Of a stretch of 64,000 nucleotides of DNA, positions 6,285 through 43,252 are shown in pieces. Source of the stretch: Bacteroidales bacterium (lineage in GTDB: Bacteria; Bacteroidota; Bacteroidia; Bacteroidales; UBA932); assembly GCA_015060245.1 (NCBI GenBank), contig SUYU01000001.1:62001-126000 (forward strand), written 5' to 3'. The notes beneath the pieces were generated by a model that was not told the origin of the DNA, made no database searches, and saw nothing but the letters and a program-made list of their open reading frames with translations. The position numbers were made by a program, and so were the translations under genes. Numbering within the stretch: the first letter of the stretch is position 1; the number at the start of each line of letters is the position of its first letter.

Positions 6285-6424
6285 CGCTCCCACATCACTC
6301 CAACACAACTCACTCGCCGCACCTGTAACGCTCCCACATCACTTCAACACCACTCACTCGCCGCACCCGTACCACTCCCACATCACTTCAACACAACTCA
6401 CTCGCCGCACCCGTACCGCTCCGA
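6285..6424. repeat. 44-bp intergenic tandem repeat (three units plus a partial)
   Basis: Three consecutive 44-bp units (6285-6328, 6329-6372, 6373-6416) differ at only a few positions, and a broken fourth follows. Each contains CACATCACTTCAACAC or a close variant and ACTCACTCGCCGCACC. The preceding 6241-6284 resembles a decayed unit. The array fills most of the 346-bp gap between the nitroreductase and tRNA-Leu. There are no spacers, so it is not CRISPR. No gene was seen in it. Confidence 0.8.
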
Positions 6425-21066: not shown

Positions 21067-22494
21067 TTAATATTCTGGATTCTGTACAAGGTTAGGGTTG
21101 ATGTCTATCTCTCTCTGAGGAATAGGAAGAGCCCATTTGTAACTTGGGAATGGAATATCCTTGAAGTTGTCGGTAGCAGTAAAATCTGTTCTTTGAACAG
21201 GATCGCCCCAACGTGCAAGATCCCATAGATAGTGACCCTCATAGTTCAACTCAAGACGACGCTCAAGTTTCATATCTGCAAAGCCCAGACTCTTCAAAGG
21301 CTCAACACCTCTGTTTGCCCTGATTGCATTCACATCTGCAATTGCAGTTGTGCCGGCAACATTTGCACCGTTAAGGATAGCCTCGGCTCTGTTCAAGTAC
21401 ATCTCAGAAAGACGTAGAACAATGATATTGTTACAATCAGGGGTACCGTCACCTTTACCTGCATATTTGGTTGTGTAAAGTTGAGTAGTCTTCTCTTCAG
21501 CATCTTTTGAAGTGCGGAACAATGAAGCCCTCACGTCACCCTCAGCAAACAAGTCAGTCAAATCTGCACTTGCACCACCATCTTTGTAACCGTCAGGATT
21601 TGTTACGTATGAAATGTCATCCCAAGAGTTGTAGTAGTCGTTGGACTTTTTGCCGTAGAACTCAAAGATAACCTCACCGCCCTCGTCTGCAACCTCTTTA
21701 GTCCATACAGTAGGATACTCCTCTGCAGTCCAAAGTGAGAACTGTGCGTTGTCAATAACTTTGGTAGCATAGTCTGCAGCATTCTGCCAGTCGCCCATGT
21801 ACAAGTAGACTCTTGATAGAAGTGCCTGGATTGCAGGTTTTGAAACAACTGATTTTGCATCAACAACACCTGCTCTCTCATAATCCTCAGCAATGATTGA
21901 CTCAGCCTCTTTAAGGTCTGCTACAATCTGGGTGTAAACCTCTTTGACCGTATTTCTTGCAGGAGTGCTGATCTCTGTTACCAACATGATTGGAACACCA
22001 GGGCCATCAGGCTGATAAGTGTACGGCTGTGCATAGTAAAGCAATAGAGTGTGGTAGTTCAATGCTCTGATGAACAAGCACTCAGCCTTAAGGTTATTCA
22101 AATCCTGTGCAGTAACACCGCTCTCGCTGTCTTTGCCCTCAAGGTTATTGATAACGTTGTTCGCTGCAGATATAACGTAGTATGCATTACCCCACATTCC
22201 TGAAGTAACATCAGCAGAATAGTTCCAGATATACTCTGTATAGAAACGTCCGGTTGTCCAGTTAGGATCCCTACGTCCATTACCTGAACGCATCTCACAG
22301 GTAACTATGTATGAACCGCTGTACCAACTGTACATTGGACTGTATGCGCCATATGTAGACTTGTCAAGACCTGCAAAGTTGCTTAGAGTTACCTCTGTAC
22401 TTTGAGATGTTGTAGGTGCTTTCTCAAGGAAGTCTGAGCAACTTGCAAGAGAAATGGCGACAATTAGTGATAATAATATTTTAATCTTTTTCAT
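21067..22494 (-). CDS. SusD/RagB-family nutrient-binding outer-membrane lipoprotein (operon A)
   Basis: 475 residues. The lipobox is in ISLASCSDFLEKAPT. The body is rich in helices of the TPR-like SusD core (LKAECLFIRALNYHTLLLYY, KPAIQALLSRVYLYMGDWQNAADYA). The C-terminal family signature is present (IIVLRLSEMYLNRAEAI, ERRLELNYEGHYLWDLARWG, LPIPQREIDINPNLVQNPEY). SusD-type proteins form the lid on the SusC barrel and hold the ligand. It starts 11 bp after susC and is followed by the Calx-beta lipoprotein. No glycoside hydrolase accompanies the operon, so a peptide or another non-starch substrate is plausible. Confidence 0.96.
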   Translation of the reverse strand: MKKIKILLSLIVAISLASCSDFLEKAPTTSQSTEVTLSNFAGLDKSTYGAYSPMYSWYSGSYIVTCEMRSGNGRRDPNWTTGRFYTEYIWNYSADVTSGMWGNAYYVISAANNVINNLEGKDSESGVTAQDLNNLKAECLFIRALNYHTLLLYYAQPYTYQPDGPGVPIMLVTEISTPARNTVKEVYTQIVADLKEAESIIAEDYERAGVVDAKSVVSKPAIQALLSRVYLYMGDWQNAADYATKVIDNAQFSLWTAEEYPTVWTKEVADEGGEVIFEFYGKKSNDYYNSWDDISYVTNPDGYKDGGASADLTDLFAEGDVRASLFRTSKDAEEKTTQLYTTKYAGKGDGTPDCNNIIVLRLSEMYLNRAEAILNGANVAGTTAIADVNAIRANRGVEPLKSLGFADMKLERRLELNYEGHYLWDLARWGDPVQRTDFTATDNFKDIPFPSYKWALPIPQREIDINPNLVQNPEY

Positions 22495-22505
22495 CTTCGT
22501 AATTT

Positions 22506-25496
22506 TTAGAAAGTAATCTCCAAACCGCCAATAAATGATTTAACCATTGAGTATCCACCACCATAATCATATCCTAATGAACCCAACTCAGGATCAAATA
22601 CGCCGTCAACATCGTGGAATGTATAAGGGTTAATTGCACTTACGTACACCTTAACATTGTTCATGCCCGCTTTCTTTGTAATATTCTGAGGAAGTGTATA
22701 CGATAGAGTTACATCTTTAATTCTCAAATAACTGCCATCCTGAATGAAACGGGTTGAATAACCTGCATAATAAACGCTTGATGAACCGTAAACAGGTTTT
22801 GGATATGTAGCGTTGTCACCTGGTTTCTTCCAGTAATCCAATGCAAGGTTGTTTACAGGTACATTGATATCATCATCGTACCATCCGTAGATGTTGGTAT
22901 TCATCACTTTATTTCCAATTGTGTACTCAAAGAATGCGCTCAATGACAAGCCTTTCCAAGAGAATTGGGTATTGAATCCGCCAAGAGCCTTAGGCTCTGG
23001 AGAACCTGCGTAAATATATCTTGCCTTGTTTCTGTCATTTGTAAGCGAACCATCCTCTGCATAGAACAAACCTTCACCGTTTGATGGGTTTACACCATAC
23101 CAGTCACGTACATAGAATGTATACATGCTCTTTCCAGGAACGATTCTTACAGGAGAACTTTCAGTACTTCTTGGGTCAGTTGCTGTCAAGAACTCAGAAT
23201 CTGCTAGGTCAACAACTTTTGATCTGTTGAATGAAATGTTGAATCCTGCTGTCCAGGTAATATCCTCTGTTCTCATGATGTCACCCTCCAACATAATCTC
23301 AACACCCTTGTTCTCAATAGCACCAATGTTCATTAGATTTGAACTGAAACCTGAAGTCTGAGGGATCTGTTTATTCAACAACATATCCTCGGTATTTCTC
23401 TTGTAGAAGTCAATGCTACCATTGAATCTGTCGAAGAATGCAAAGTCAATACCTACGTTCCAAGTCTTGTTCTTCTCCCATGAAAGTTTAGGGTTGGCAC
23501 TTGATGAAGGAAGCATACCTGTAATACCGTTGTATGGAGATGTTGCATAAAGACCGTAAGCCCTGTATCTACCAATATTGTTGTTACCGTTTACACCATA
23601 TGATGCTCTCACTTTCAAGGTGTTCAACCAGTCTACACTCTTAAGCCAGTTCTCATTGTGCAAGTTCCATGATGCAGATGCACTCCAGAAGAGACCCCAT
23701 TTGGTATCTGCACCAAATAGTGATGAACCATCATAACGTACAGATGCCTGTGCGTAGTATTTTGACTCATAGTTGTAGTCTGCTGTTCCGAAGAATGAAA
23801 GCAAAGTCTCCTCGCTCTCGCCATAGTAAACCTCGTCTGTTGCTGCAGAACCTGTGTTAGGGTATGGAATAGCAGGGTCAACTTGAGGAGATTTTCCACC
23901 CAAGTAGTTGTAGCCGTCATACTGTGCCTCCTGACCAACCATAACTCTTACAGAGTGTTTGTCAGCAAAGATATCATCGTAAGAAACAGTGTTTGATGTC
24001 AAAAGTCTGTACTCCTCGCTTCTGTACATCCAAAGTGTTGTTTCACCCTGGTTTGTCTCCGGTGCCCAGTATTGTCTTGAGTTTACAAGGCTCATCTCAG
24101 CACTGTTGTTGGTCTTGATTGTGATCTGTTTGATAGGCTTGTACTCCAAGAACATCTGACCCTGGAAACGGTATGATTTGTCGTTGTACTCATCATACTC
24201 GGCATTTGCTCTCGGGTTGGTATCTGAGTTGTTAGGAAGATCTACATTATGGTTACCATCCTCATCATAAGGTTTCTCCCATGGAAGAAGGTTCCACATT
24301 GCATACGCACCGTTTGAATAGAACAAACGACCCATCTGACCTGAATTCTGGTCTGAATAACCTGCATTTACGCTAACACCGGCCTTCAAGTTCTTCAAAA
24401 GTTTGTAGTCAGCATTGATACGAGCAGTAAATCTCTTGTAATCTACACCGTAGTAAATACCTGTCTCATCATGGTATGCCAATGATGTATAGAAAGTACC
24501 TTTATCATTACCACCCATTGCATTCACCTCATACTCCTGCATGCGGCCAATTCTTGTAAAGTGGTCCATCCAGTCAGTCATCTCCAAATCAAGCATAGAT
24601 AGAGGACGAAGTTCATCAGGATTGTAACCGGCATTGGTCAACATGTCACGGTGGAAGTTTATTGTCTGCTCAGGAGTTGCAGGTCTGAAATTCTTGTCAT
24701 TTGACAACTGTGTAACACCCACTTTCGCACGTGCAGTGAATGAAGCCTTACCCTGTTTACCACTCTTTGTTGTTACAAGGATTACACCATTGGCAGCACG
24801 TGAACCGTAGATTGAAGCAGCAGCAGCATCTTTCAATACTGTAATGCTCTCAATATCGTTAGGGTTGATAGAAGACATTGTTGTACCGCTACCAGCACCT
24901 ACGTTTGACATCACGTTCTGGTCATTGGTCATGATTGGAACACCGTCAACAACCCATAGAGGGTCGCTGCCTGCACCAATTGAAGAGATACCACGAATGC
25001 GGACTGTAGTTGGAGCACCAGGTTGTCCGGAGTAAGAAGAAATCTGTACACCGGCCATCTTACCTGCCAACATCTTTTCCACAGAAGCGACTGGAGCATC
25101 TCCTATAGACTCTGTCCTTACAGTTGTCACAGAACCGGTCTTTGCCTCTTTGCTGACTGTTCCGTACGCAACTACAAGTACATCATCCAACTGCTCTGAA
25201 TCCTGCTCCATTGCTATATTTACAATCGAGCGTCCGTTTACAGGAACTTCGGCATTTGCATATCCAACGAAAGAAACTATCAAAGTAGCGTCTGCAGGAA
25301 CTGTAATGGTATATGCACCATCCAAATCAGTTGTGACAACCTTTGTTGTTCCTTTTACCTGAATGGAAGCAAATGGAATTGTCTCACCGGTTGTTGCGTC
25401 TGACACAACACCCTTCACTTGTATATCCTGAGCATAGCCTGTTACAGCCGCCAACAACACTACAAGTGATGTGAAAAATAGTTTGACACTTTTCAT
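22506..25496 (-). CDS. SusC/RagA-family TonB-dependent outer-membrane transporter (operon A)
   Basis: 996 residues, normal for SusC. The signal peptide ends at GYAQ. A carboxypeptidase-regulatory-like domain (about 23-105) is followed by the TonB box region LDDVLVVAYGT, the plug domain (RIRGISSIGAGSDPLWVVDG, ITVLKDAAAASIYGSRAANG) and a 22-strand beta barrel ending in an aromatic C terminus (GGLEITF). It imports ligands delivered by SusD using TonB energy. The first 7 codons and the entire 5' leader are nearly identical to those of the divergent susC at 31967, in inverted orientation, while the rest of the two proteins is clearly different. A -7 element lies 133 bp upstream. Confidence 0.97.
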   Translation of the reverse strand: MKSVKLFFTSLVVLLAAVTGYAQDIQVKGVVSDATTGETIPFASIQVKGTTKVVTTDLDGAYTITVPADATLIVSFVGYANAEVPVNGRSIVNIAMEQDSEQLDDVLVVAYGTVSKEAKTGSVTTVRTESIGDAPVASVEKMLAGKMAGVQISSYSGQPGAPTTVRIRGISSIGAGSDPLWVVDGVPIMTNDQNVMSNVGAGSGTTMSSINPNDIESITVLKDAAAASIYGSRAANGVILVTTKSGKQGKASFTARAKVGVTQLSNDKNFRPATPEQTINFHRDMLTNAGYNPDELRPLSMLDLEMTDWMDHFTRIGRMQEYEVNAMGGNDKGTFYTSLAYHDETGIYYGVDYKRFTARINADYKLLKNLKAGVSVNAGYSDQNSGQMGRLFYSNGAYAMWNLLPWEKPYDEDGNHNVDLPNNSDTNPRANAEYDEYNDKSYRFQGQMFLEYKPIKQITIKTNNSAEMSLVNSRQYWAPETNQGETTLWMYRSEEYRLLTSNTVSYDDIFADKHSVRVMVGQEAQYDGYNYLGGKSPQVDPAIPYPNTGSAATDEVYYGESEETLLSFFGTADYNYESKYYAQASVRYDGSSLFGADTKWGLFWSASASWNLHNENWLKSVDWLNTLKVRASYGVNGNNNIGRYRAYGLYATSPYNGITGMLPSSSANPKLSWEKNKTWNVGIDFAFFDRFNGSIDFYKRNTEDMLLNKQIPQTSGFSSNLMNIGAIENKGVEIMLEGDIMRTEDITWTAGFNISFNRSKVVDLADSEFLTATDPRSTESSPVRIVPGKSMYTFYVRDWYGVNPSNGEGLFYAEDGSLTNDRNKARYIYAGSPEPKALGGFNTQFSWKGLSLSAFFEYTIGNKVMNTNIYGWYDDDINVPVNNLALDYWKKPGDNATYPKPVYGSSSVYYAGYSTRFIQDGSYLRIKDVTLSYTLPQNITKKAGMNNVKVYVSAINPYTFHDVDGVFDPELGSLGYDYGGGYSMVKSFIGGLEITF

Positions 25497-25610
25497 TTGT
25501 TAAAAATTAAGTTAATATTAAAGTTATTTTAGGTTTTACTACTAGTTCTTGTAAATTCAAACACACCCCGTTGCCGGGAATCTATCTGTTCCTGTACAGA
25601 AATAACGGGC
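25474..25610 (-). repeat. Inverted repeat copy A: shared susC leader
   Basis: Read on the minus strand, this holds two blocks identical to copy B at 31855-31989: 57 bp (25547-25603 against 31862-31918) and 59 bp (25474-25532 against 31931-31989). The 12-14 nt between them is diverged. GCCCGT at the outer edge (25605-25610) is also shared. The 57-bp block can form two small RNA hairpins, TCTGT/ACAGA and CCCG-GCAA-CGGG. The second block covers the susC start codon and the first codons. Confidence 0.93.
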
Positions 25611-25628
25611 ATTTTTTCCGTACAAACG

Positions 25629-25636
25629 CAAATATA
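25629..25636 (-). promoter_or_regulatory. -7 promoter element of susC operon A
   Basis: TATATTTG on the minus strand matches the Bacteroidota -7 consensus exactly. The -33 region is weak (a TTTA near the expected place). It lies 19 bp beyond the end of the shared leader repeat, inside the segment bounded by the two inverted repeats. Predicted transcripts would carry the whole leader as a 5' UTR of about 125 nt. Confidence 0.6.
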
Positions 25637-26012
25637 ATACTATTTTTTAACGTCTGCTAAATTCACAAGCCTAATTTACAGGCTACTAATATAGATATTT
25701 TTTGTGAAAATCCAAAAAATAATCACAAGCATATTAAAATTTATAATAATTCAGCCTGTTTTAGTTACAATTTTTAGAAAATAATTCATTTTTTCAGGGA
25801 AAAAAATTTTTTAAAATTTTTTAAAAATACTGAATTTTAGGTCTCAGCCATGTTTAAATGGCATTCTCATCCCGCACATTCCTGCTTTCAATCTGAATGA
25901 TTATAATGCCCGTTTTGTCTGAATGTCTCGGCACAGGCTTTTTTGAAAGGAGAGCAACGTTCATATTGGCCAAAAAGGAGAGGCTGCCCAAATGATTCAT
26001 CATTAAACAGCA
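25637..26012. other. AT-rich intergenic DNA between susC operon A and the carboxylase genes
   Basis: No convincing gene. The stretch around 25800-25830 is a run of A and T tracts with near-palindromic order. A 66-codon minus-strand frame at 25854-26054 has no family features and I leave it out. Upstream activator sites for the susC promoter could lie here but none is recognisable. Confidence 0.5.
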
Positions 26013-26044
26013 AATCCCTGCCAGATATATTTCTGACAGGGATT
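26013..26044 (-). terminator. Weak hairpin after the biotin carrier gene
   Basis: AATCCCTG (26013-26020) pairs with CAGGGATT (26037-26044), partly extended inside. No strong T run follows on the minus strand, so this is a tentative terminator about 55 bp after the gene end. Confidence 0.4.
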
Positions 26045-26098
26045 GATTAGCCATTAATAAAGACGATTCGGGTCAGCCTCGTGCAAATTGCCGGTTTG

Positions 26099-26485
26099 TT
26101 ACTCCATGACCATCAGTATCGCACCTTTTGGAAGGTTTGTCCCCTCCTGCACGGCAATACTCCTGATTGTTCCGTCAAACGGAGCAGTGATGATGTTCTT
26201 CATCTTCATAGCCTCATAGATCATGAGTTTCTCTCCTTTCTTGACCTTCTGTCCCTCCTTTACATATATTGCAGCAACAACTCCGGGTATATGGGAAACT
26301 ATTTCATTAGGGTCCGGCGCCACCCATTTTTTCCTCTCTGCGAACTTCCTGGTAAGCATTGTCCTGTACCTCCTTCCCTCTGTAAAGACCTGGATATGGT
26401 CTGTGAAGAGATTTGGGTCGTCCGACATCAGGACTGCATCATTAACCTCATGCAGCGATACTATTTCTTTGTTATTCTCTTCCAT
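26099..26485 (-). CDS. biotin carboxyl carrier subunit of an acyl-CoA carboxylase or decarboxylase
   Basis: 128 residues. The C-terminal biotinyl domain has the biotin-lysine motif IYEAMKMKN with flanking SHIPGVVAAIYVKEGQKVKKGE and APFDGTIRSIAV. The N-terminal 55 residues are an acidic then basic extension (HIQVFTEGRRYRTMLTRKFA). The biotin group shuttles carboxyl between partner subunits. It follows the carboxyltransferase gene by 48 bp in the same direction. No biotin carboxylase gene is in the window, and neither is the membrane beta subunit of a sodium-pumping decarboxylase. Whether this complex carboxylates propionyl-CoA or decarboxylates methylmalonyl-CoA cannot be decided here. Confidence 0.93.
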   Translation of the reverse strand: MEENNKEIVSLHEVNDAVLMSDDPNLFTDHIQVFTEGRRYRTMLTRKFAERKKWVAPDPNEIVSHIPGVVAAIYVKEGQKVKKGEKLMIYEAMKMKNIITAPFDGTIRSIAVQEGTNLPKGAILMVME

Positions 26486-26533
26486 TTTTCTCCTTTCCTT
26501 ATATTAATTAAACATGAATATTGTGATGGAGCA

Positions 26534-28081
26534 TTAAAATGGTGGAACTCCATGCTTCTTCACTGGACGCTTGAGCACCTTGTTGGTAGAGATCTCCAAT
26601 GCATGAAGTATGAATTTTCTTGTATCGGCAGGCGGAATGACAGTATCTATATATCCTTTTGCCGCCGCAACGTAAGGGTTGGCAAATTTGTCTTTGTACT
26701 CCTGAACTTTCTGCTTTCTCATCTCGTTAGGGTCTGCCGCCTCCATGATCTCTTTTCTGAAGATGATGTTTGCCGCACCCTCAGGTCCCATTACGGCAAT
26801 TTCAGCAGTAGGCCATGCAAATACAAAGTCGGCACGCAAGTGGCGTGAGTTCATTGCAATGTATCCACCGCCGTAAGCCTTTCTCAATATGATGGTAACC
26901 TTTGGAACAGTGGCTTCCGAGTATGCGTAGAGCAGTTTTGCACCATGGCGTATTACACCGGCATGCTCCTGGTCCACACCAGGCAGATAACCCGGCATAT
27001 CCTCAAGGGTTACTATAGGAATCTCAAAGGCGTCGCAGTAGCGGATGAATCTTGCTGCCTTATCTGACGAATCGCAGTCAAGCACTCCTGCAAGCACCAT
27101 AGGTTGGTTTGCAACAAAACCTACTGTTCTGCCTCCAACCCTTCCGTATCCTATCACTATGTTTGGAGCCCACATCTCCTGAATTTCAATAAACTCAGAA
27201 TTGTCGGTAATGGATTTGATTACGTCCCTTACATCATATGGTGCAGTAGGATCTGCAGGAACAATCTTGTCAATCTTGTATTTTTTCAAAGGCTCCTTTG
27301 TTTTCAAAGGCTCCTGTTTCTCCTGGTTGTGGGCAGGAATATATGAAAGAAGTTCTTTGATCTGATCAAAACACTGTTCCTCGCTCTCAGCAAAGAAATG
27401 GGCGTTTCCTGTTGTTTCGCAATGGACCCTTGCACCGCCCAAAGACTCCATATCTATCTCCTCTCCCAAAACAGATTTGATAACCTCAGGGCCTGTAATG
27501 AACATTTTTGAGATTTTGTCAACCACAAATACATAATCGGTCAATGCCGGTGAATACACAGCACCTCCTGCGCATGGTCCAAGGATTACCGAGATTTGTG
27601 GAATGACACCGCTGGCAAGGGTGTTTCTGAAGAAGATTTCTCCATAGCCTGCGAGTGAGTTGACACCCTCCTGAATACGCGCTCCGCCTGAATCGTTGAT
27701 TCCAATAAGAGGAATGCGCATCCTCAAGGAGTAATCCATTATTTTGGTTATCTTTCTTGCATGCATTGATCCCAAAGAGCCGCCTGCAACTGTAAAGTCC
27801 TGCGCATAGATTGCCACCGGTTTGCCGTTGATTGTTCCGGTACCGATAACAACTCCGTCTCCGGCCAAACTCTTGTTCTCCATACCGAATTCTCTTGCAT
27901 CATGCTCTATGAAGAGGTCATACTCATAAAAAGAACCCGGATCCAGCAACTTGTTTATTCTCTCCCTGGCAGGAAGTTTTCCCATTGCAATCTGTTTTGC
28001 AATGGCTTTGTCGCCTCCACCCTGAACAGCCTTTGCCGTTCTCTCCTGGAGTTCGGAAATTTTCTTGCTAAATAAACTCAT
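26534..28081 (-). CDS. acyl-CoA carboxylase carboxyltransferase subunit (propionyl-CoA carboxylase beta / MmdA type)
   Basis: About 515 residues from MSLFSKKISELQERT, the usual length. Crotonase-fold carboxyltransferase signatures are clear: FTVAGGSLGSMHARKI, GINDSGGARIQEGVNSLAGYGEIF (acyl-CoA site) and ILGPCAGGAVYSPALTD. The C-terminal half has LEDMPGYLPGVDQEHAGVIRHG and KAYGGGYIAMNSRHL (biotin site). The enzyme transfers carboxyl between carrier-bound biotin and propionyl-CoA/methylmalonyl-CoA, central to the succinate-propionate pathway of Bacteroidales. The frame opens at 28105, but the -7 element at 28103-28110 would overlap that start, so 28081 is preferred. The biotin carrier gene follows. 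Confidence 0.94.
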   Translation of the reverse strand: MSLFSKKISELQERTAKAVQGGGDKAIAKQIAMGKLPARERINKLLDPGSFYEYDLFIEHDAREFGMENKSLAGDGVVIGTGTINGKPVAIYAQDFTVAGGSLGSMHARKITKIMDYSLRMRIPLIGINDSGGARIQEGVNSLAGYGEIFFRNTLASGVIPQISVILGPCAGGAVYSPALTDYVFVVDKISKMFITGPEVIKSVLGEEIDMESLGGARVHCETTGNAHFFAESEEQCFDQIKELLSYIPAHNQEKQEPLKTKEPLKKYKIDKIVPADPTAPYDVRDVIKSITDNSEFIEIQEMWAPNIVIGYGRVGGRTVGFVANQPMVLAGVLDCDSSDKAARFIRYCDAFEIPIVTLEDMPGYLPGVDQEHAGVIRHGAKLLYAYSEATVPKVTIILRKAYGGGYIAMNSRHLRADFVFAWPTAEIAVMGPEGAANIIFRKEIMEAADPNEMRKQKVQEYKDKFANPYVAAAKGYIDTVIPPADTRKFILHALEISTNKVLKRPVKKHGVPPF

Positions 28082-28102
28082 AATTGTAGGTTTTTGTTTT
28101 CG

Positions 28103-28157
28103 CAAAAATAAGATATTTTTTTAATTACAAAAATATTCGGGATTTTAACTATATTTG
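28103..28157. promoter_or_regulatory. Divergent -7 elements for the carboxylase operon and gcvP
   Basis: TATTTTTG on the minus strand (28103-28110) with TTTG 17 nt upstream (28128-28131) would drive the carboxylase genes. TATATTTG on the plus strand (28150-28157) would drive gcvP; no good -33 was seen for it. The predicted gcvP start of transcription leaves room for an ATG at 28206 rather than 28173. Confidence 0.55.
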
Positions 28158-28205
28158 CTTAATTAACCATAAATGGAAATCAAACAAATAAAACAAATAA
28201 CAAAT

Positions 28206-31043
28206 ATGGCTTTTACATTTACAGACAGACACATTGGTCCCAGAGAAAAGGACATTCAGAAGATGTTGGAAGTTTTGAATGTTTCATCATTGGATGAACT
28301 TACAAAACAGGTTGTTCCTTCAGATATTTTGCTGGACAAGGATTTGGATCTTACTCCAGCCGTTTCGGAAAATGCCTATTTGGCAAACCTCAAGGCTATG
28401 GTTGCCAAGAACAAGAATTTCCGCACCTTGATTGGAGGCGGTTACTTTGGAACAGGCGTTCTTCCAGTAATTACCCGCAATATTTTTGAGAATCCTTGCT
28501 GGTATACATCATACACTCCTTACCAGGCAGAGATTTCACAAGGCCGTCTTGAGGCACTGCTCATTTTCCAGACAATGATCAGCAGCCTTACCGGCTTCCC
28601 TCTTTCGAACTGCAGCATGCTTGATGATGCCCAGGCTGCAGGCGAGGCAATGAGAATGATGTTTGAGTTGAGAAGCAGAGATGCTGTAAAGGCGGGCAAG
28701 AATGTGGTATTTGTCGATGAGCAGATATATCCTCAGGTATTGTCGGTACTCAAGACAAGATCAAAAGGTTTGGGAATTGAGATTGAGGTTGGAAACTATA
28801 AGGATTTTGAGTTCGGCGGCAAATGCTACGGTGCAATTGTACAGTACCCTGCTGCAAACGGTGAGGTAAGGGATTATGCGGAGTTCTGCAACAAGGCCCA
28901 TGAGAGCGGTGCTTTGGTAACAGCATATTGCGACCTTATGGCTTTGGCACTGCTTAAAGAGCCGGCAGCATGGGGAGCAGATATTGCAGTGGGCAGTTCG
29001 CAACGCTTTGGTTTGCCTATGGGCTTCGGTGGTCCTGTGGCAGGCTTCATGGCAACAAAAGATACCTACAAGAGGCAGATTCCCGGCCGTATAATAGGTG
29101 TATCTGTTGACAGATTGGGCAATCAGGCACTAAGACTTGCCCTTCAGACCCGTGAGCAGCATATCAAGAGGGAGAAGGCCACTTCAAACGTCTGTACAGC
29201 CACAGCCCTTATGGCAACAATGAGCGGCATGTACGCAGTATATCATGGTCCTCAAGGCGTCAAGGATATTGCAGCAAAGATGAGCCACTACGCACACGCC
29301 GTTGCATCATTCCTTAAAGAGGCAGGTTATGAGTTGGCTTCCGACAACTTCTTTGACACAATTGAGATTACAGGCAAATCAGGTGCAGCCTTGGACATTG
29401 CCCAAATCAAGGAGAATGCACTTGCTGCCGGATACAACTTCCAGTACACTGCGAAGAGCGTAAGAATCAGTTTTGACGAACTTACAGACTGCAATGAGGC
29501 AAAAGCAGTGCTTGCAATCTTTGGAACACAGCCTGGCGGCTGCAGTTGCGGCAATTCAGACAACGGCTTCATGCAGAGAGAAACCCCAATCCTTACAGAG
29601 AAGGTCTTCAACTCATACCATTCAGAGACTGAAATGATGCGTTTCATCAAGAAACTTGAGAGAAAGGATATCTCTTTGGCTCACTCAATGATTCCTCTTG
29701 GCTCTTGTACCATGAAATTGAATGCGGCTGTAGAGATGTTGCCTCTAAGTTGGAGCGAATTGGGCAATGTGCATCCGTTTGCACCAAAAGACCAGGTTGA
29801 GGGCTACATGCAACTTGTGAAGGAACTTGAGCATGACTTGGCTGTAATCACCGGATTTGACGCATGTTCTTTGCAGCCTAACTCCGGCGCTGCAGGCGAG
29901 TATGCGGGTCTTATGACAATCAGAGGCTACCATATGGCAAATGGCGGCGAGAACAGGAATATTATGATTATCCCTACCTCTGCACACGGAACAAATCCTG
30001 CAAGTGCCGCTATGGCCGGCTTCTCGATTGTTCTTGTAGGTTGTGACGAGAACGGAAATATCAACGTTGACGAGTTGAGGGAGAAGGCTGTTGCGAACAA
30101 GGAAAACTTGGCAGGCCTTATGATCACTTACCCTTCTACACATGGTGTATTTGAGGTCAAGATCAAGGAGATTATGGACATTATCCATGAAAATGGCGGT
30201 TTGGTATACATGGACGGTGCAAACATGAACGCACAGGTAGGCCTGACAAATCCTGGTCATATTGGAGCGGATGTATGCCACTTGAACCTGCACAAATCAT
30301 TTGCAATGCCTCACGGCGGCGGTGGCCCTGGCGTTGGCCCTATCTGCTGTACTTCGGCCCTTGCGCCATATCTTCCTGGTCATCCGGAAGATGCAGAGTG
30401 CGGCGGCAAAGGTGTTGAGGCTGTATCTGCGGCTCCTTACGGAAACCCTCTTCTATTGCCTATCACACACGCATACATCAAATTGTTGGGTGCGCAAGGC
30501 TTGAAAAAATCTTCTCAAATTGCCATCCTCAATGCAAACTACATGGCTGTTAAATTTGCACCTGAATTCAAGACCCTATATTGTGGCGCGACAGGCAGAG
30601 TTGCCCATGAGTGCATCGTTGATTGCCAGCACTTCAAGGCTGAGTATGGCGTGGATGCAACTGATTTGGCAAAACGTCTTATGGATTACGGATTCCACGC
30701 TCCTACACTCTCATTCCCGGTACATGAGACATTGATGGTTGAGCCTACAGAGAGCGAGCCTCTTGCAGAACTTGACAGATTTGTAGATACAATGAAACAG
30801 ATCAAAGCCGAGTGCGAGAAGATCAAAAGCGGTGAGTATGATGCAAATGACAACCCTGTGAAAAACTCGCCTCATACAGCAGAAGAGGTTTGTTCAGATG
30901 AGTGGAACCACAAATATTCAAGAACAGTTGCAGCATATCCGTTTGACTGGATCAGGGAGAATAAGTTCTGGCCAGCCGTTGCACGCGTTGACAACGGTTA
31001 CGGCGACAGAAACCTTGTTGCAACCTGCGGCGACAGATGCTAA
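28206..31043 (+). CDS. gcvP: glycine dehydrogenase (decarboxylating), P protein of the glycine cleavage system
   Basis: About 945 residues from MAFTFTDRHIGPREKDIQKM, the conserved start of single-chain GcvP. It decarboxylates glycine with PLP and passes the aminomethyl group to lipoyl-GcvH. Both homologous halves are present. The N-terminal half has YTPYQAEISQGRLEALLIFQ and SMLDDAQAAGEAM, and the C-terminal half has SMIPLGSCTMKLNAA, SAHGTNPASAAMAG and the PLP-lysine motif NLHKSFAMPHGGGGPG. gcvT and gcvH are not in the window, so the pathway genes are scattered. An in-frame ATG at 28173 gives 11 more residues but sits too close to the promoter. It lies within the segment bounded by the inverted susC leaders. 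Confidence 0.97.
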   Translation: MAFTFTDRHIGPREKDIQKMLEVLNVSSLDELTKQVVPSDILLDKDLDLTPAVSENAYLANLKAMVAKNKNFRTLIGGGYFGTGVLPVITRNIFENPCWYTSYTPYQAEISQGRLEALLIFQTMISSLTGFPLSNCSMLDDAQAAGEAMRMMFELRSRDAVKAGKNVVFVDEQIYPQVLSVLKTRSKGLGIEIEVGNYKDFEFGGKCYGAIVQYPAANGEVRDYAEFCNKAHESGALVTAYCDLMALALLKEPAAWGADIAVGSSQRFGLPMGFGGPVAGFMATKDTYKRQIPGRIIGVSVDRLGNQALRLALQTREQHIKREKATSNVCTATALMATMSGMYAVYHGPQGVKDIAAKMSHYAHAVASFLKEAGYELASDNFFDTIEITGKSGAALDIAQIKENALAAGYNFQYTAKSVRISFDELTDCNEAKAVLAIFGTQPGGCSCGNSDNGFMQRETPILTEKVFNSYHSETEMMRFIKKLERKDISLAHSMIPLGSCTMKLNAAVEMLPLSWSELGNVHPFAPKDQVEGYMQLVKELEHDLAVITGFDACSLQPNSGAAGEYAGLMTIRGYHMANGGENRNIMIIPTSAHGTNPASAAMAGFSIVLVGCDENGNINVDELREKAVANKENLAGLMITYPSTHGVFEVKIKEIMDIIHENGGLVYMDGANMNAQVGLTNPGHIGADVCHLNLHKSFAMPHGGGGPGVGPICCTSALAPYLPGHPEDAECGGKGVEAVSAAPYGNPLLLPITHAYIKLLGAQGLKKSSQIAILNANYMAVKFAPEFKTLYCGATGRVAHECIVDCQHFKAEYGVDATDLAKRLMDYGFHAPTLSFPVHETLMVEPTESEPLAELDRFVDTMKQIKAECEKIKSGEYDANDNPVKNSPHTAEEVCSDEWNHKYSRTVAAYPFDWIRENKFWPAVARVDNGYGDRNLVATCGDRC

Positions 31044-31089
31044 ACAGAGCAAATAATATGTGCAGATTGAACAATCTGCCTTAAACATG

Positions 31090-31120
31090 GGAGGGCGACC
31101 ACGAGGTTGCCCTCCTTTTA
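31090..31120 (+). terminator. Terminator of gcvP
   Basis: GGAGGGCGACC (31090-31100) pairs with GGTTGCCCTCC (31105-31115) with one mismatch, and then TTTTA follows. It lies 47 bp after the gcvP stop, preceded by a small GCAGATT/AATCTGC hairpin. Confidence 0.8.
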
Positions 31121-31193
31121 TGTTTCGGCAAGGCCGGCATGTGCAGGTTGGGGGCTGCATGCTTTTTTGCACAGGCCCGCATTACACTGCCCG

Positions 31194-31805
31194 CTATTGC
31201 TCCAGCATGACCGAATTGCTCAAAAAGTAGTACAGAGTTGATCTTGACACCTTGAGGCTCTTTGCAATCTGAACCTTTGGTGTTCCGTTTGAGATGTGCT
31301 GCAAAATAATCTCCCTCTTTGGCGTCAATTTGAGTTTGCTGTTCTTACTCCCCTTGGGCCTGCCCAATTTTACACCTTCGGCCCTTTTTCGGGCCAGGGC
31401 CTCTTTGGTCCTCTGACTTATGAGACTTCTCTCAATCTCTGCGGAGAGGCCGAAAGCAAATGCCAGCACCTTGCTCTGTATATCATCCCCGAGCCGGTAA
31501 TTGTCCTTGATTGTCCAGACCCTGCACTCCTTTGTCATGCAGATATTGAGAATCTCCATAATCATGAAGAGGTTCCTTCCCAATCTCGAAAGTTCCGCAC
31601 ATATTATCAGGTCATTCTTCCTGACCCTCTTGAGCAGTTTTCCAAGTGCCCTTTTGTTGTAACTCTTTGTTCCGCTGATTGTCTCCTCTATCCAACCATC
31701 TATCTGAATGGAGTGTACCTTACAAAAGTTATTGATTTCAAACCTTTGGTTTTCAACAGTCTGCTTATCGCTGCTTACCCTTATATATCCGTATATCATT
31801 ATCAT
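31194..31805 (-). CDS. Mpi-family serine recombinase (DNA invertase)
   Basis: 203 residues, the size of Hin/Pin/Mpi invertases. The catalytic domain starts IYGYIRVSSDKQTVENQRFE with the nucleophilic Ser. The active-site Arg residues lie in CAELSRLGRNLFMIMEIL, and the dimer-forming helix E is FGLSAEIERSLISQRTKEAL. A linker (GVKLGRPKGSKN) leads to a C-terminal helix-turn-helix, KVQIAKSLKVSRSTLYYF. The sequence WIEETISGTKSYNKR and KDNYRLGDDIQSKVLAF is, from memory, close to the Mpi master invertase that flips capsule promoters in Bacteroides fragilis. All key residues are intact. Its start lies 49 bp from inverted repeat copy B in front of susC operon B, and it converges on gcvP. Action on that repeat is an inference. 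Confidence 0.93.
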   Translation of the reverse strand: MIMIYGYIRVSSDKQTVENQRFEINNFCKVHSIQIDGWIEETISGTKSYNKRALGKLLKRVRKNDLIICAELSRLGRNLFMIMEILNICMTKECRVWTIKDNYRLGDDIQSKVLAFAFGLSAEIERSLISQRTKEALARKRAEGVKLGRPKGSKNSKLKLTPKREIILQHISNGTPKVQIAKSLKVSRSTLYYFLSNSVMLEQ

Positions 31806-31854
31806 TTAAGTTTAAATTGCCTAACAGGAATTTGATCTGCTGTAAAAATTTAAC

Positions 31855-31989
31855 GCCCGTCATTTCTGTACAGGAACAGATAGATTCCCGGCAACGGGGT
31901 GTGTTTGAATTTACAAGATCAGCAGTAAGACTAAAATAACTTTAATATTAACTTAATTTTTAACAAATGAAAAGTGTCAAACTATTTTT
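31855..31989 (+). repeat. Inverted repeat copy B: shared susC leader
   Basis: Contains the same 57-bp (31862-31918) and 59-bp (31931-31989) blocks as copy A at 25474-25610, in opposite orientation, plus the GCCCGT edge at 31855-31860. The centre (31919-31930) differs. Upstream, at 31801-31854, no TAnnTTTG element was found at a useful distance, unlike on the copy A side. Confidence 0.93.
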
Positions 31990-34900
31990 AGCATCGCTAC
32001 TCATGCTCTTGATAGTGAACACCAGTTTCGCACAAGACATTAGAGTATCGGGTACCGTTAAGGATGCCACTACAGGAGAACCTGTAGCCTTTGCGTTCGT
32101 ACTAGTAAAAGGTACCACCACCGGTTACAGCACTGGCCAAATGGGAGAATTCACCATCAATGCACCAGCAAATGGTACTCTTGTTATTTCTCTTGTGGGC
32201 TATCAAGAAACAGAGGTCCCTATCGATGGTAAATCCACTATGGATATATTGATTAATCCAGATGTGGAAAATTTGGATGATGTCATTATTGTTGCATATG
32301 GTACAGCCAAAAAAGGCTCTTTCACAGGCTCTGCAGCTACCGTTAAAAAGGATGACATTGTCAAAAGAGGTGTTACCAATGTCACAAAGGCCCTTGACGG
32401 CCTTGCTCCAGGCGTTATGACCACATCTGGAGGCGGACAACCAGGCTCATCAGCATCTATACAAATCCGCGGATATGGTTCCATCAATGCTTCCCAAACT
32501 CCTCTTTATGTAGTTGACGGTGTCCCTTTTGATGGTGCTATAAGCTCAATCAATCCTGCTGATATTGAATCTATGTCAGTTCTTAAAGATGCATCTGCCG
32601 GAGCACTATATGGTGCACGCGGTGCCAATGGTGTAATTATGATTACAACAAAACGTGGATCATCAGACAGAACATCTGTTACTTACCGCGGCACAGTAGG
32701 TATATCTTCCCGCTCAATTGCAGAGTATGATTTGGTTAGCCAGGATGAGTTCGTAGAACTTACTTGGGAAGCTTTGAAAAACGGTTACCAATACAGAAGC
32801 GGGATGTCTGAAGCCCAAGCTAAGGCACTTGCTTCCGCAAATATGAGCAAAAACCTTGGTGGTGAAATTTACAATCCATACAAGAACTACACTTGGGAAA
32901 CTTTAATTGATCCTGAAACAGGAAAGTTGAAAACAGATGCAAAATCTGCATGGAATGAGAGCTGGATGGATGAAATTACAGACAATGCGGCAATCCGTAC
33001 AGAACATCAGTTCTCAATTTCAGGAGGTAACGCCAAAACAAAATACATGGCATCATTCGGATACTTGTATGAGGATGGTGTTCTTAAGACCACTCACTTT
33101 GACAGATACTCAGGTAGAGTAAATGTTGATCATCAGGCAAAATATTGGTTGAAAGCTGGTTTGAATGCAAACTTGTCATATACAGAGTCAAACTCTCAGC
33201 AGTTAGGTGAAGGCACTTACACATCAAATGCATGGTACACTGCTCAGTTTATGGCACCTATCTACCCTATGTATTTGAAAGATGCTGAAGGTAAGGACAT
33301 TCTAGATGAGAATGGTAACAGACAATATGACTACGGTGAGGAATACGGGCGTCCTAAAGCCGAGAAGTTCAATACTCTTGGAAACCTTAATGACAACAAA
33401 TACGAGGACAAGAGAGATAACGTATCATTCCGCGCAAACATTGATTTTGGTGGTGATGATGAGAAGATGGGCGTTCTTAAAGGGTTGAAACTATCATTGA
33501 ATATGGGTGGTGATATGGTTAGCCAGAATATCATGAACTACTACAATATGTATCATGGTGACGGTGCTGCATCAAAAGGTGATATCACCAAATATAATGT
33601 AAGAACATTCTCATACACAATTAACCAGTTGCTTACTTACAACAGAAAATTTGGAAAACACTCCATTGATTTTCTTGCAGGTCACGAGTTCTATGCATAC
33701 AAATACAACTATTTGATGGCCAATAAGACTGGTTTGGTTGACGGTATTTTTGATCTTGCTCCTGGTACAACTCTAGCAGGTGGTAACTCTTATACAGATA
33801 ACTACAGAGTAGAGTCATTCCTTGGTAGAATCAACTATAACTTTGCAGACAAATACTATATCTCTGCATCATACAGAACAGACGGTTCATCACGTTTCCA
33901 TAAAGATTTCCGTTGGGGTGATTTCTGGTCAGTAGGTGCAAGCTGGAGATTGTCTGAGGAAAGCTTCATGCAAAACACAAAAGATTGGTTGAGCAACCTT
34001 TCTGTAAAGGTAAGTTACGGTTCACAAGGTAATGATGATCTCCGTACATACTATGCTTGGCAATCATTCTATGATGTAACATATCCTAATGCTAACAATT
34101 CAGGTGCAATTGTAACTTCATTGGAGAACAAAGAGGTTACCTGGGAGAAAAAAGCTACCCTAAATACAGGTATTGAGGCATCACTATTCAACTCAAGATT
34201 GAGTATCGCAGCTGAGTATTACCATACTAAAACCACAGACTTGTTGTTATCTTACCCAATGGCAATGTCAACGGGTTTCACCGGTTACAATGATAATGTT
34301 GGCAGTATGCAAAACCAAGGTGTTGAGTTTATGGTAAGAGGAACCATTTTCAACAATCCTAACTTTATGTGGGATATGTCAGTAATGGGTTCATTCAACA
34401 AAAATAAAGTTACCGCTCTTACGGCTGAGAGTGATGAGATTACAGGCACTTACTTAATTAAGGTGGGTATGCCTATCTATACATATTATATGGCTAAATC
34501 GGCAGGTGTTGATCCTGTAACAGGTAAACAACTTTACTACGCTTATGAGAAGATGGAAGATGATGGCAGCGTTGTTGGCGAATATATTACATCAGACTAT
34601 TCCAAAGCTTCATCAAGCAGATACTACCACGGTAGCAGGGCTCCAAAATTGAGCGGATCAATTGGTGCTAACTTCAGAATCTTCAAAGATATTGACCTTT
34701 CAATTTTGACAACCTACTCTATTGGCGGTAAGATTTTGGAAAGTTCATACGCTTCTTCAATGAATGCTACCTACGTTGGTGATACTTGGAACAGAGCCGT
34801 TCTAAGAAGATGGCAAAAACCGGGAGATGTAACAGATGTTCCTATGATTGAAATTGGAGGTTCATATACTACAACTGACAGATTCTTGATTGATGCATCA

Positions 34901-35119
34901 TACTTTGCTATCAAGAATATAACATTAGGATACTCACTACCTAAGAGAGTTGCTGAGAAGATCAACGCTTCAAACCTAAGAATTTTTGTAAACTTGGATA
35001 ACTTGGCACTATTTAATCACTTGGATGGTATGGATCCTCAGCAGACTTTTGCAGGAGACACAGACTATACCTATGCACCAATTAAGACCACATCATTTGG
35101 TATTGAGTTAAACTTCTAA
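31967..35119 (+). CDS. SusC/RagA-family TonB-dependent outer-membrane transporter (operon B)
   Basis: 1050 residues. The signal peptide ends at SFAQ. The carboxypeptidase-like domain (about 24-105), TonB-box segment LDDVIIVAYGTAKKGSF, plug (IQIRGYGSINASQTPLYVVDG, MSVLKDASAGALYGARGANG) and barrel ending in TTSFGIELNF are in the expected order. It shares only the leader and the first residues (MKSVKLF) at DNA level with susC A; the mature proteins differ throughout, so the ligands probably differ. The operon appears richer in A/T-ending codons than its neighbours, which may reflect transfer or weaker codon selection. susD follows after 13 bp. A local promoter is not obvious. Confidence 0.97.
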   Translation: MKSVKLFLASLLMLLIVNTSFAQDIRVSGTVKDATTGEPVAFAFVLVKGTTTGYSTGQMGEFTINAPANGTLVISLVGYQETEVPIDGKSTMDILINPDVENLDDVIIVAYGTAKKGSFTGSAATVKKDDIVKRGVTNVTKALDGLAPGVMTTSGGGQPGSSASIQIRGYGSINASQTPLYVVDGVPFDGAISSINPADIESMSVLKDASAGALYGARGANGVIMITTKRGSSDRTSVTYRGTVGISSRSIAEYDLVSQDEFVELTWEALKNGYQYRSGMSEAQAKALASANMSKNLGGEIYNPYKNYTWETLIDPETGKLKTDAKSAWNESWMDEITDNAAIRTEHQFSISGGNAKTKYMASFGYLYEDGVLKTTHFDRYSGRVNVDHQAKYWLKAGLNANLSYTESNSQQLGEGTYTSNAWYTAQFMAPIYPMYLKDAEGKDILDENGNRQYDYGEEYGRPKAEKFNTLGNLNDNKYEDKRDNVSFRANIDFGGDDEKMGVLKGLKLSLNMGGDMVSQNIMNYYNMYHGDGAASKGDITKYNVRTFSYTINQLLTYNRKFGKHSIDFLAGHEFYAYKYNYLMANKTGLVDGIFDLAPGTTLAGGNSYTDNYRVESFLGRINYNFADKYYISASYRTDGSSRFHKDFRWGDFWSVGASWRLSEESFMQNTKDWLSNLSVKVSYGSQGNDDLRTYYAWQSFYDVTYPNANNSGAIVTSLENKEVTWEKKATLNTGIEASLFNSRLSIAAEYYHTKTTDLLLSYPMAMSTGFTGYNDNVGSMQNQGVEFMVRGTIFNNPNFMWDMSVMGSFNKNKVTALTAESDEITGTYLIKVGMPIYTYYMAKSAGVDPVTGKQLYYAYEKMEDDGSVVGEYITSDYSKASSSRYYHGSRAPKLSGSIGANFRIFKDIDLSILTTYSIGGKILESSYASSMNATYVGDTWNRAVLRRWQKPGDVTDVPMIEIGGSYTTTDRFLIDASYFAIKNITLGYSLPKRVAEKINASNLRIFVNLDNLALFNHLDGMDPQQTFAGDTDYTYAPIKTTSFGIELNF

Positions 35120-35132
35120 AGACTAAAGAGAT

Positions 35133-36692
35133 ATGAAAAAAATATTAATCATATTTGCATTATTTGCAACAGTTTTAGCATCTTGTTCTAAAGATGCCCT
35201 TGAGACCAAGCCTACCGAGCAGGTATCGGGCGACGGTGTCATGGAAAAGACAACTACTGCCCTAATGGCTCTGGACGGAACATACAGATTGATGTTTGAA
35301 TGGGGCTGGCCAGTACTTGCAAACTACCACCAGGAGGTGGGAATTATGGGTTATGCCCTAATGGCAGACCTTATGGGTGAAGATATGGTAATGGCACAAC
35401 AGGGAAACGGTTGGTTCTGGTTTGACTATAGATATCAAGTAAAGAGCAGATATACATCAACAAGCTGGAGACCGTACGGTTTGTGGAATTACTACTACAC
35501 AATTATTGCTAACGTAAACTACATCATTGCAGCTGAAGAGACAATGGAAGGTCCTACGGCAGATAAAAACAGCATCATAGGACAAGCATACGCTATAAGA
35601 GCCTATTGCTACCACAACCTTGCTGTTATGTTTGCTAGGACATACATAGGTCACGAGAATGAAAAATGTGTTCCTATTTACACAGAGCCTACGTCCGCCG
35701 GCACTCAGGGACAACCACGCTCAACCAATGAGGAGGTTTACACAAGAGTTCTTGAAGATATAGACAAAGCTATTACACTATTGGCTGAGGCAACTCCTGC
35801 AAGAGACAAATCACATATCAGTTCTAACGTAGCAAAAGCTCTAAAGGCAAGATTCCTCTCTTACACAGCAAAAACACAACAGGACTGGAAAGTTGTTGCA
35901 ACTCTTGCAAAAGAGGCTCAAGCTGCTGGAACAATCTGTTCATTTGATAACGTTAGTAATGGTTTCAATAGTGCAGAAGAGAAATTTGTAATGTGGGGAT
36001 TCCTAACCATTCAAGAGCAAACAACTACCAACCCGCAATTCATGGCTCATATGGATTACTATTATGGTGGATACGGAAAAGCAGCCCCTAAATGCTGCAG
36101 CGCATGGTTATATGACAAGATTGCTGAAACTGATGCAAGAAAAGCTTGGTTCAATGCTACTCATGAGTATCCTCTTCTACAAGAAAAATTCTTGTTCAAC
36201 ACAAATAAGGATGCTAATGATGCAAAATATGTTAATGCCATTTGTGATAGAATATACATGAGGGTTGAAGAAATGCACCTTTTGGAGGCTGAGGCACTAT
36301 GCCGCGCAGGTGAAGATGCAAGTGCACAAGCAGTCCTCAACAATTTCATGAGTAACCGTGACAAGAGCTATAACTGCACAAAAACAGGTACTGCTCTAGG
36401 TGCATTAACTACAGATTTGACAGGCTCACTACTTGAGGAGATTCTTATCCAGAGAAGAATTGAACTTTGGGGAGAGTATGGTAGAGTGTATGATATCAAA
36501 CGTTTAAAACAGGGATTTGTAAGAACTGCAGAAATGGGACACCCTGCTGATGGCATAGCCGCCCTAAATTCTCTCAGATGTGATAATCCTGAAACTTGGG
36601 ACTGGGTTATGACTATTCCTCAGAAAGAGTTTGACGCTAACAAGAATATGGATATTACAACAGACCAAAATCCTGTTGGAAGTGGTATCTAA
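35133..36692 (+). CDS. SusD/RagB-family nutrient-binding outer-membrane lipoprotein (operon B)
   Basis: 519 residues. Lipoprotein signal with lipobox LASCSKDALETKPT. SusD features include IIGQAYAIRAYCYHNLAVMFAR in the N-terminal helical core, SNVAKALKARFLSYTAKTQQ, RIYMRVEEMHLLEAEALCRAG, QRRIELWGEYGRVYDIKRLKQG and the C-terminal IPQKEFDANKNMDITTDQNP. It should bind nutrient at the cell surface as the lid of the operon B SusC barrel. It is clearly divergent from the operon A SusD. It is followed after 20 bp by a third lipoprotein gene. Confidence 0.95.
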   Translation: MKKILIIFALFATVLASCSKDALETKPTEQVSGDGVMEKTTTALMALDGTYRLMFEWGWPVLANYHQEVGIMGYALMADLMGEDMVMAQQGNGWFWFDYRYQVKSRYTSTSWRPYGLWNYYYTIIANVNYIIAAEETMEGPTADKNSIIGQAYAIRAYCYHNLAVMFARTYIGHENEKCVPIYTEPTSAGTQGQPRSTNEEVYTRVLEDIDKAITLLAEATPARDKSHISSNVAKALKARFLSYTAKTQQDWKVVATLAKEAQAAGTICSFDNVSNGFNSAEEKFVMWGFLTIQEQTTTNPQFMAHMDYYYGGYGKAAPKCCSAWLYDKIAETDARKAWFNATHEYPLLQEKFLFNTNKDANDAKYVNAICDRIYMRVEEMHLLEAEALCRAGEDASAQAVLNNFMSNRDKSYNCTKTGTALGALTTDLTGSLLEEILIQRRIELWGEYGRVYDIKRLKQGFVRTAEMGHPADGIAALNSLRCDNPETWDWVMTIPQKEFDANKNMDITTDQNPVGSGI

Positions 36693-42335: not shown

Positions 42336-43252
42336 ATGAAAAACATTAACCAATTAAGTACAAACAAGTTTGCCATATACTTGACTGTTGTGCTTACATT
42401 GTTTGCCACAGGTTGTACCCGACAGGGTAATGTAAACGGAAACATAATATCAATAGAGGAAGCCCTTGGAAATATTGAGGAGGTCAGTTTGAGCAAATAT
42501 GCCTCAAAAATAGAGTATGTAGTGCTTGACAATTCTGACAGCGTTATGCTTCCCGGCGTAAAGGATCTTCAGATCAAGGGAGCCGGAGAGGATATTTTTA
42601 TCAGTCATGGAGTCTTCTCGTTGGAGAAAGAGGCTTGCTTCAGATTTACTTCAGACGGCAAGTTCTGCAATACCATAGGAATAAGAGGCAGAGGGCCCGG
42701 GGAGTTTTCACGTCTGAGAAAAGTATATGTTGACCCGGCCCAACGTACTTTTACAATCAGTGATCCGCACAAATTGATAACATACAGTTTTGAAGGTCAA
42801 TTCATTTCAGAAAAAGCAATCTCTGATTTTACTCCAGAAGAGTCTGCAAGGTACAATGTCGGAGCAAAAGAGTACCTCTACCTCGATTACAAGGAACCTG
42901 ATATGTGGAGACCGACCGTTTTGTAAAGTTCAATGCACTTCGCACCGCTTTTGCCTTTCCAAATCTGGATGAGCACGACAAGGTGGCTGAGGTTATTTAT
43001 GACAAGCAGACAAAGAGAGCCTGCTCAATGAAAGTAGATTATAACCAACCGTTTGAAGGCTTCACGAATGACCTGGATGGCGGTATCCCATTCTGGCCGG
43101 TTTATGCAAGCGAAGGAAAGATGTATCAGATGCTGGATGCTACAGACTTTATCTCATACGCAGAAAAGAGCAACTCTCCCAAAATGAAGGAGGCAGCCGC
43201 AAAACTCACAGAAGAGAGCAATCCGGTACTTATAGTGGTGACGCTTAAATAG
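42336..43252 (+). pseudogene. 6-bladed beta-propeller lipoprotein, broken by an internal deletion and frameshift
   Basis: The first frame (42336-42926, 196 codons) starts with a lipoprotein signal (LFATGC) and runs to LYLDYKEPDMW before a short out-of-frame end. A second frame beginning around 42905 (ETDRFVKFNALR) continues to the paralogues' shared C terminus ESNPVLIVVTLK. Against the intact paralogue at 46686-47735, about 43 codons between YYKIPS and ETDRF are missing, and the reading frame changes there. The gene is therefore probably inactive, unless the two halves are made separately. Its last 70 bp remain very similar to those of both intact paralogues. A sequencing or assembly error at 42895-42910 could explain the frameshift but not the missing codons. 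Confidence 0.8.

Follow-up and report, generated by a model that had tools for sequence, protein, structure and literature searches.

Most accounts of phase switches concern small promoter cassettes or shuffles of surface genes. The Hin flagellar phase switch of Salmonella is of about 1 kb, has no core genes in it and serves one operon plus a repressor. Tsr0667 of Bacteroides fragilis is a tyrosine enzyme. The SusC/SusD shufflons of that species are reported to undergo shufflon-type multiple inversions by Tsr0667. For B. intestinalis, large inversions of TonB/SusD clusters, often with a recombinase gene flanking them, and Mpi segments of less than 200 bp have been described (PMC8375218). We discuss here a locus that may be compared with these. 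It lies in the window, by which we mean a stretch of 64,000 nucleotides from a Bacteroidales bacterium (assembly GCA_015060245.1, 2.21 Mb and 92% complete; contig SUYU01000001.1, our C17), and consists of about 6.2 kb with metabolic core genes and an Mpi-family recombinase gene, flanked by inverted leaders of two divergent susC operons. On balance we lean towards the reading that this is an invertible, promoter-bearing segment of core genes that chooses between the two susC operons, possibly by means of an Mpi-type invertase.

The main features are as follows.

22506-25496, minus strand: SusC_L, a susC-family TonB-linked transporter, first gene of the left operon (TIGR04056, 840 bits)
25474-25610, minus strand: left leader, the left copy of a 137-bp inverted repeat (95.6% identity)
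26099-26485, minus strand: biotin carboxyl carrier protein (BCCP; PF00364)
26534-28105, minus strand: acyl-CoA carboxylase carboxyltransferase subunit (PF01039; best NCBIfam model mmdA, under its cut-off)
28173-31043, plus strand: gcvP, glycine dehydrogenase (TIGR00461)
31194-31805, minus strand: Mpi-family serine recombinase (PF00239, NF009949)
31855-31989, plus strand: right leader, the right copy of the inverted repeat
31967-35119, plus strand: SusC_R, a susC-family transporter, first gene of the right operon (TIGR04056, 777 bits)

The likeness to the Mpi promoters of B. fragilis and B. intestinalis lies in an Mpi-family invertase in the genome, in surface genes as putative targets, in a TAnnTTTG box between inverted repeats and, at the level of a hint, in a candidate site core related to ARACGTTCGTN (PMC8375218). 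The window differs in that the segment, with four genes, is not a small gene-free cassette and lies between two operons, and in that its candidate site has GG at the centre where the published Mpi site has TT. It resembles the Hin switch in having a serine invertase gene and a putative promoter inside the segment, and differs from it in the core genes. In contrast to the Tsr0667 shufflons, core genes would be the moving part, and no PF00589 tyrosine recombinase was found on the window contig. The TonB/SusD inversions of B. intestinalis are alike in the size of the segments and in the recombinase gene that often accompanies them; there the uptake clusters themselves invert (PMC8375218), whereas in the window the clusters would be fixed and it is the block of core genes between them that putatively does so.

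In the mechanism that we propose, the segment of about 25609-31856 would be the invertible block. A single promoter at its BCCP end would read outward over the recombination site into the adjacent leader and susC gene, the leader on the gcvP side having no recognisable promoter, and recombination between the inverted leaders would reverse the block and so transfer its promoter to the opposite operon. In the sequenced arrangement SusC_L would be on, in the reversed one SusC_R. The core genes point from the middle of the block towards its two ends and stop short of the leaders, and would be intact in either orientation. The likeliest enzyme would be an Mpi-type serine invertase, here the local one. 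The activity of the promoter, present-day switching and the identity of the enzyme are what we infer from these features. If the proposal is right, core genes ride within a switch and change strand with each flip, core-gene orientation is coupled to surface variation, and some of the breaks in synteny among metagenome-derived species would be switch states frozen in place.

Inverted leaders and the orientation of the block

An earlier note on this DNA had claimed that the two leaders are nearly identical in inverted orientation, with exact blocks of 57 bp (25547-25603 and 31862-31918) and 59 bp (25474-25532 and 31931-31989), and had named acyl-CoA carboxylase subunits, gcvP and a serine recombinase as the genes between them. 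The blocks are as claimed, and gene calls and domain searches gave the same contents. The inverted arms are 25547-25613/31852-31918 (67 nt, 97%) and 25452-25532/31931-32011 (81 nt, 89%), and they join, with short gaps, into one repeat of 137 bp (25474-25610/31855-31989, E 1e-56). At E<=0.001 this repeat has two copies in the whole assembly, and the idea of many close leader copies in the genome was rejected. The search for further copies of the 57-bp block gave a similar result: an 18-base probe from it, with up to 3 mismatches allowed, found in the assembly the two copies at 0 mismatches, four places at 3 and no other place below 3 (control 0). The 59-bp outer block is similar to leaders of other susC genes in several species of the genus, and the inner block alone had a best match of E 0.016 among the matches listed for 61 genomes.

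To determine orientation we used the carboxyltransferase gene, of which a close ortholog (84-100% identity) was found in 33 of 39 genomes searched from the genus, that of the window (G000) among them. Window genes were mapped on the stretches around this ortholog in the other 32 genomes, the marker being a neighbouring gene that we take to be of the SGNH family, with 43-95% identity to that of the window. In the window and 20 of these genomes it lies beyond the gcvP end, whereas G021 alone has it beyond the BCCP end; 11 could not be scored, including G013, in which gcvP and the carboxyltransferase gene are on the same strand. There are thus 22 scorable loci, 21 of them in the orientation of the window and G021 alone in the opposite one. 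In G021 the gcvP end adjoins an ortholog of SusC_L (82%), and the BCCP end a SusC_R-like gene (49%). Farther out, the genes that lie in the window between 6.8 kb and the left operon on one side, and between 38.7 and 51 kb on the other, are collinear, with a few missing. The arrangement is explained by one inversion between the two leaders. The opposite orientation that the earlier note had proposed to look for in related genomes is found in G021, and the comparison of gene order speaks for inversion of the entire segment that the leaders enclose.

The block has a susC gene directly at both ends in at least 3 of the 33 genomes (the window's, G021 and G015) and at the BCCP end only in at least two, G012 and G030, several contigs being short. 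G019 may also have a susC gene at the BCCP end, to judge from a leader-like stretch cut by the contig end. A scan of genome contigs for gcvP, with 80 loci kept, gave no second strain of the window species, the closest being 70% identical.

The leaders are more alike within genomes than between them. The SusC_L leaders of the window and G012 are 74% alike over 247 bp, with proteins that are 97% identical, while the inverted repeats of G021 are perfect (69 bp and 29 bp). In the case of G015, contig C13 has the same 141 bases at both ends, and contigs C23 and C12 end in two susC bodies without the first 40 residues; these contig breaks show only that the repeat length reaches 141 bp and are not counted as evidence of flipping. 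That leaders match inside a genome yet differ between genomes suggests leader exchange within each genome.

It might be argued that duplication of a 5' untranslated region (UTR) gave rise to the shared leader, that the copies are kept alike for the sake of regulation or by gene conversion, and that the window locus does not invert. The repeat does fall within what is putatively the 5' UTR, with a small hairpin in it, and the outer block is, as noted, a susC leader of several species. However, no further close copy of the 57-bp block was found in the assembly, the block differs between species while matching within each, and G021 is reversed between the leaders; we regard this explanation as quite improbable. 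At gathering thresholds no Rfam RNA family was found in the leader, two tRNAs being the only matches in the window. A search with the leader gave no match in plasmids, and in phages two records, which match bases 63-117 of the 138-base query.

Putative promoter boxes of the leaders

The box TAnnTTTG is given as the Bacteroides -7 consensus in two sources (PMC4747536, PMC3090145), and we sought it in the approximately 310-450 nt upstream of each susC gene. The window has one.

25629-25636, minus strand: putative -7 box TATATTTG (TAnnTTTG), directed toward SusC_L, at -141 of that gene

It is the sole such box of the two leaders and is on the BCCP side, on the segment side of the repeat and inside the putative invertible block; the SusC_R leader has no TAnnTTTG in the 450 nt upstream. 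A box inside the inverted repeats with none on the other leader is the arrangement looked for in an invertible promoter, and the asymmetry gives a reason why inversion of the segment would act as a switch. The same box is present in the orthologous SusC_L leader of G012. In 5 of 6 inverted-leader pairs the box is in one leader only: the window (-141), G021 (-142), G015 C13 (-123), G007 (-91) and G024, which has two boxes (-117 and -91), both on the same side. At all three loci around the BCCP-gcvP block (window, G021 and G015) it is on the BCCP side. For comparison, three divergent susC pairs without repeated leaders have boxes on both sides, on one side and on neither. The similar position of the box in these pairs and its presence in G012 give the asymmetry added weight.

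Candidate sites and a second core-gene block

From the published Mpi repeat ARACGTTCGTN (PMC8375218), we chose the core RACGnnCGT for a search. It is present at both window leaders, which we take as a modest hint of recombination sites.

25604-25612, plus strand: left Mpi-like core AACGGGCAT (1 mismatch to RACGnnCGT; centre GG at 25608-25609), a hint only
31852-31860, plus strand: right Mpi-like core AACGCCCGT (no mismatch; centre CC at 31856-31857, which is GG on the other strand), a hint only

Pairs of cores were required to be inverted, with no more than 1 mismatch, the same centre and 24 of 33 positions alike, and were sought in 76 loci (1.16 Mb, with one palindromic contig, L122, left out). 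They were found in 4 of the 76, namely the window, G021, G015 and a methylase repeat of G026 beside a close Mpi relative. The count of loci is in itself uninformative, as any motif within a long repeat is counted. However, the Mpi-like core is at the inner edge of the repeat in all three core-gene loci, and no control core reaches all three. When all 64 dyad cores are compared, 5 do so; ACG ranks behind TAA in second place and is alone among them in containing G or C.

A longer site, GCAATCARACGGTCKTTA, is common to G015 and G026. In the 39 genomes it gave 11 hits in 8 genomes with no more than 2 mismatches (reversed control 4), among them a new inverted pair in contig C6 of G015 with 1 mismatch each. 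A half-site motif derived from loci L084 and L108 found 12 sites in 1.22 Mb and, when the sequence was reversed, 1. Of the 12, 8 lie upstream of susC genes in G015 and G030, 1 is at a broken susC edge and there is 1 each in L108, L111 and L086, with none in the window. The new finds are L240 and L241. With a pattern made from the window sites themselves we found the two window copies at 0 mismatches and seven places at 2. At up to 3 mismatches there were 59 hits, and since the control exceeds this with 109, further sites of the window type are not claimed.

The region in G015 C6 (L240, 4034-19344) may be a second core-gene example. The order is susC (minus strand), site, lpxK, PFK, rplM, rpsI, rpsB, tsf, TATATTTG box, site, susC (plus strand), and the two large sites, centred at 7633 and 13854, are inverted with the same centre, GT. 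A small promoter-site pair in the same region has the centre AA/TT. We suggest, tentatively and with some doubt, that Mpi-type invertases of the genus use blocks of core genes as the moving arms of phase switches, with one promoter per susC pair and with distinct central dinucleotides (GT, TT) keeping neighbouring switches separate.

There are two further observations on these new loci. Upstream of a susC gene, L240 (7339-7464) and L241 (5361-5486), from two species, each have a pair of inverted Mpi-like sites with 125 bp between them; the pair in L240 encloses a TATATTTG box, and both look like a classical small invertible promoter. Another Mpi-like site, at L240 19491, marks the broken edge of a susC body whose first part is missing and which may be a silent cassette.

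The recombinase and the alternatives to a switch

The recombinase is of the Mpi type, as the earlier note had it, with its start 49 bp from the long repeat: it scores 336.1 bits against NF009949 (cut-off 272; residues 3-199 of 203) and has the PF00239 resolvase catalytic domain and the PF02796 HTH. No other PF00239 protein was found in the assembly, whose three PF00589 proteins are on contigs C8, C10 and C12. The local enzyme is possibly the one that acts at the leaders.

Several results weigh against a programmed switch worked by this enzyme. The Mpi-type gene is missing from the segment in G021 and from the assembled segment in G015, one such gene in G021 and two in G015 being outside the switch loci as assembled, and in G012 it is between gcvP and YbaK with no second susC gene or repeat. 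The contrast in orientation is between species (G000 and G012 against G021), with no same-species pair. As to the site, the four control cores gave pairs in 4, 5, 2 and 2 loci, and the site argument is weakened by their performing alike; the four other dyad cores that reach all three loci consist of A and T only; an ungapped search for a site common to the window repeat and the repeats of G026, G017, G015 and G021 gave chance level; and the window sites match those of relatives in the core alone (half-site scores 7+6 and 8+7 of 12+12). In the case of the promoter, the sixth inverted-leader pair, that of G015 C6, has a box in both leaders (-148 and -141), the -148 box being enclosed by its own two inverted sites 125 bp apart, and a shuffled single leader has a box with a probability of 0.16-0.38, so that the box count alone is modest. 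Of the earlier note's proposal of an invertible locus, then, inversion of the whole segment is supported, with G021 reversed and its flanks largely collinear, while present-day flipping in this species and the part of the recombinase in it are conjectural; a short core is what the candidate site has in common with the sites of relatives, and control cores match about as many loci.

These results lead to the alternative of occasional homologous (RecA-type) recombination between long paralogous susC leaders, which inverted the block in one lineage; in that case the rearrangement would be one between species, unprogrammed, and the recombinase a bystander. It would account for a G021 locus with no recombinase and a recombinase site that amounts to no more than a core, and is in keeping with the outer block resembling other susC leaders and with the long repeats of G015, whose pair of susC proteins shows 93.8% identity over 1013 residues. 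Yet the part of the leader that is identical includes the 57-bp inner block, which was not found in other leaders here and which, in the window and G021, is set apart from the outer block by a diverged spacer; the putative promoter is one-sided, which is what a switch needs; and G015 has a second core-gene block with inverted sites at both susC leaders. We judge this alternative rather unlikely.

A different question is whether the local Mpi-type enzyme serves other sites in the genome, with another enzyme or none acting at the leaders, which would be compatible with the segment being an invertible switch. Mpi relatives in the genus adjoin methylase genes with their own repeats, or sit among unrelated genes. 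In G026 and G017 these methylase genes have inverted repeats of 57-63 bp, with an Eco57I domain confirmed in G026; G012 has the enzyme without the repeat, and control cores perform like the Mpi core. Against this, there is the lack of any other PF00239 protein among those found in the assembly, the location of the three PF00589 proteins on other contigs, and the presence of Mpi-type genes or fragments beside susC/susD operons in at least 7 of 22 matching genomes, with neighbours mapped for part of the matches (G000, G005 with the gene cut, G006 with it broken, G007, G016 with one internal stop, G022 and G024). We consider service at other sites a real possibility, and incline slightly against it.

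Some other loci with relatives of the recombinase may be mentioned. L108 (7351-9641) and L111 (7453-9832) are restriction-modification-like loci with inverted repeats of 63 and 57 bp at the methylase NPPY motif; they are beside close relatives of the window recombinase, and each is likely a specificity switch. In L120 (9657-10569) and L121 (4106-5134) about 740 bp separate the two genes of a divergent susC pair, which has inverted leaders, a one-sided box and an Mpi-type gene at the operon end. L122 (contig C52 of G022) is a 10.5-kb contig that is a perfect palindrome over its whole length with two Mpi-type genes, and is either a genuine inverted duplication or an artefact of assembly. Near the invertase of G030, a 15-bp repeat inside a gene that is presumably truA-like was taken as chance.

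The remaining features of the window locus are the rest of the two operons and two hairpins.

21067-22494: susD-like gene of the left operon, followed by genes of 285, 221 and 659 aa, the operon ending at 17357
35133-36692: susD-like gene of the right operon, followed by a 650-aa gene at 36713-38665
26013-26044, minus strand: weak terminator-like hairpin 3' of BCCP
31089-31116, plus strand: weak terminator-like hairpin 3' of gcvP

There is no clear excess of terminator-like hairpins in the region, with 9 against 6.2 +- 2.7 expected. Elsewhere in the window there are repeats of about 81 bp at 43171-43252, 46686-46767 and 47838-47919, two of them direct (96% alike) and one inverted, which resemble 3' ends of related genes and have a similar set in G012 (L077). 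A 48-bp direct repeat (94%) at 6287-6422 is directly before a tRNA gene.

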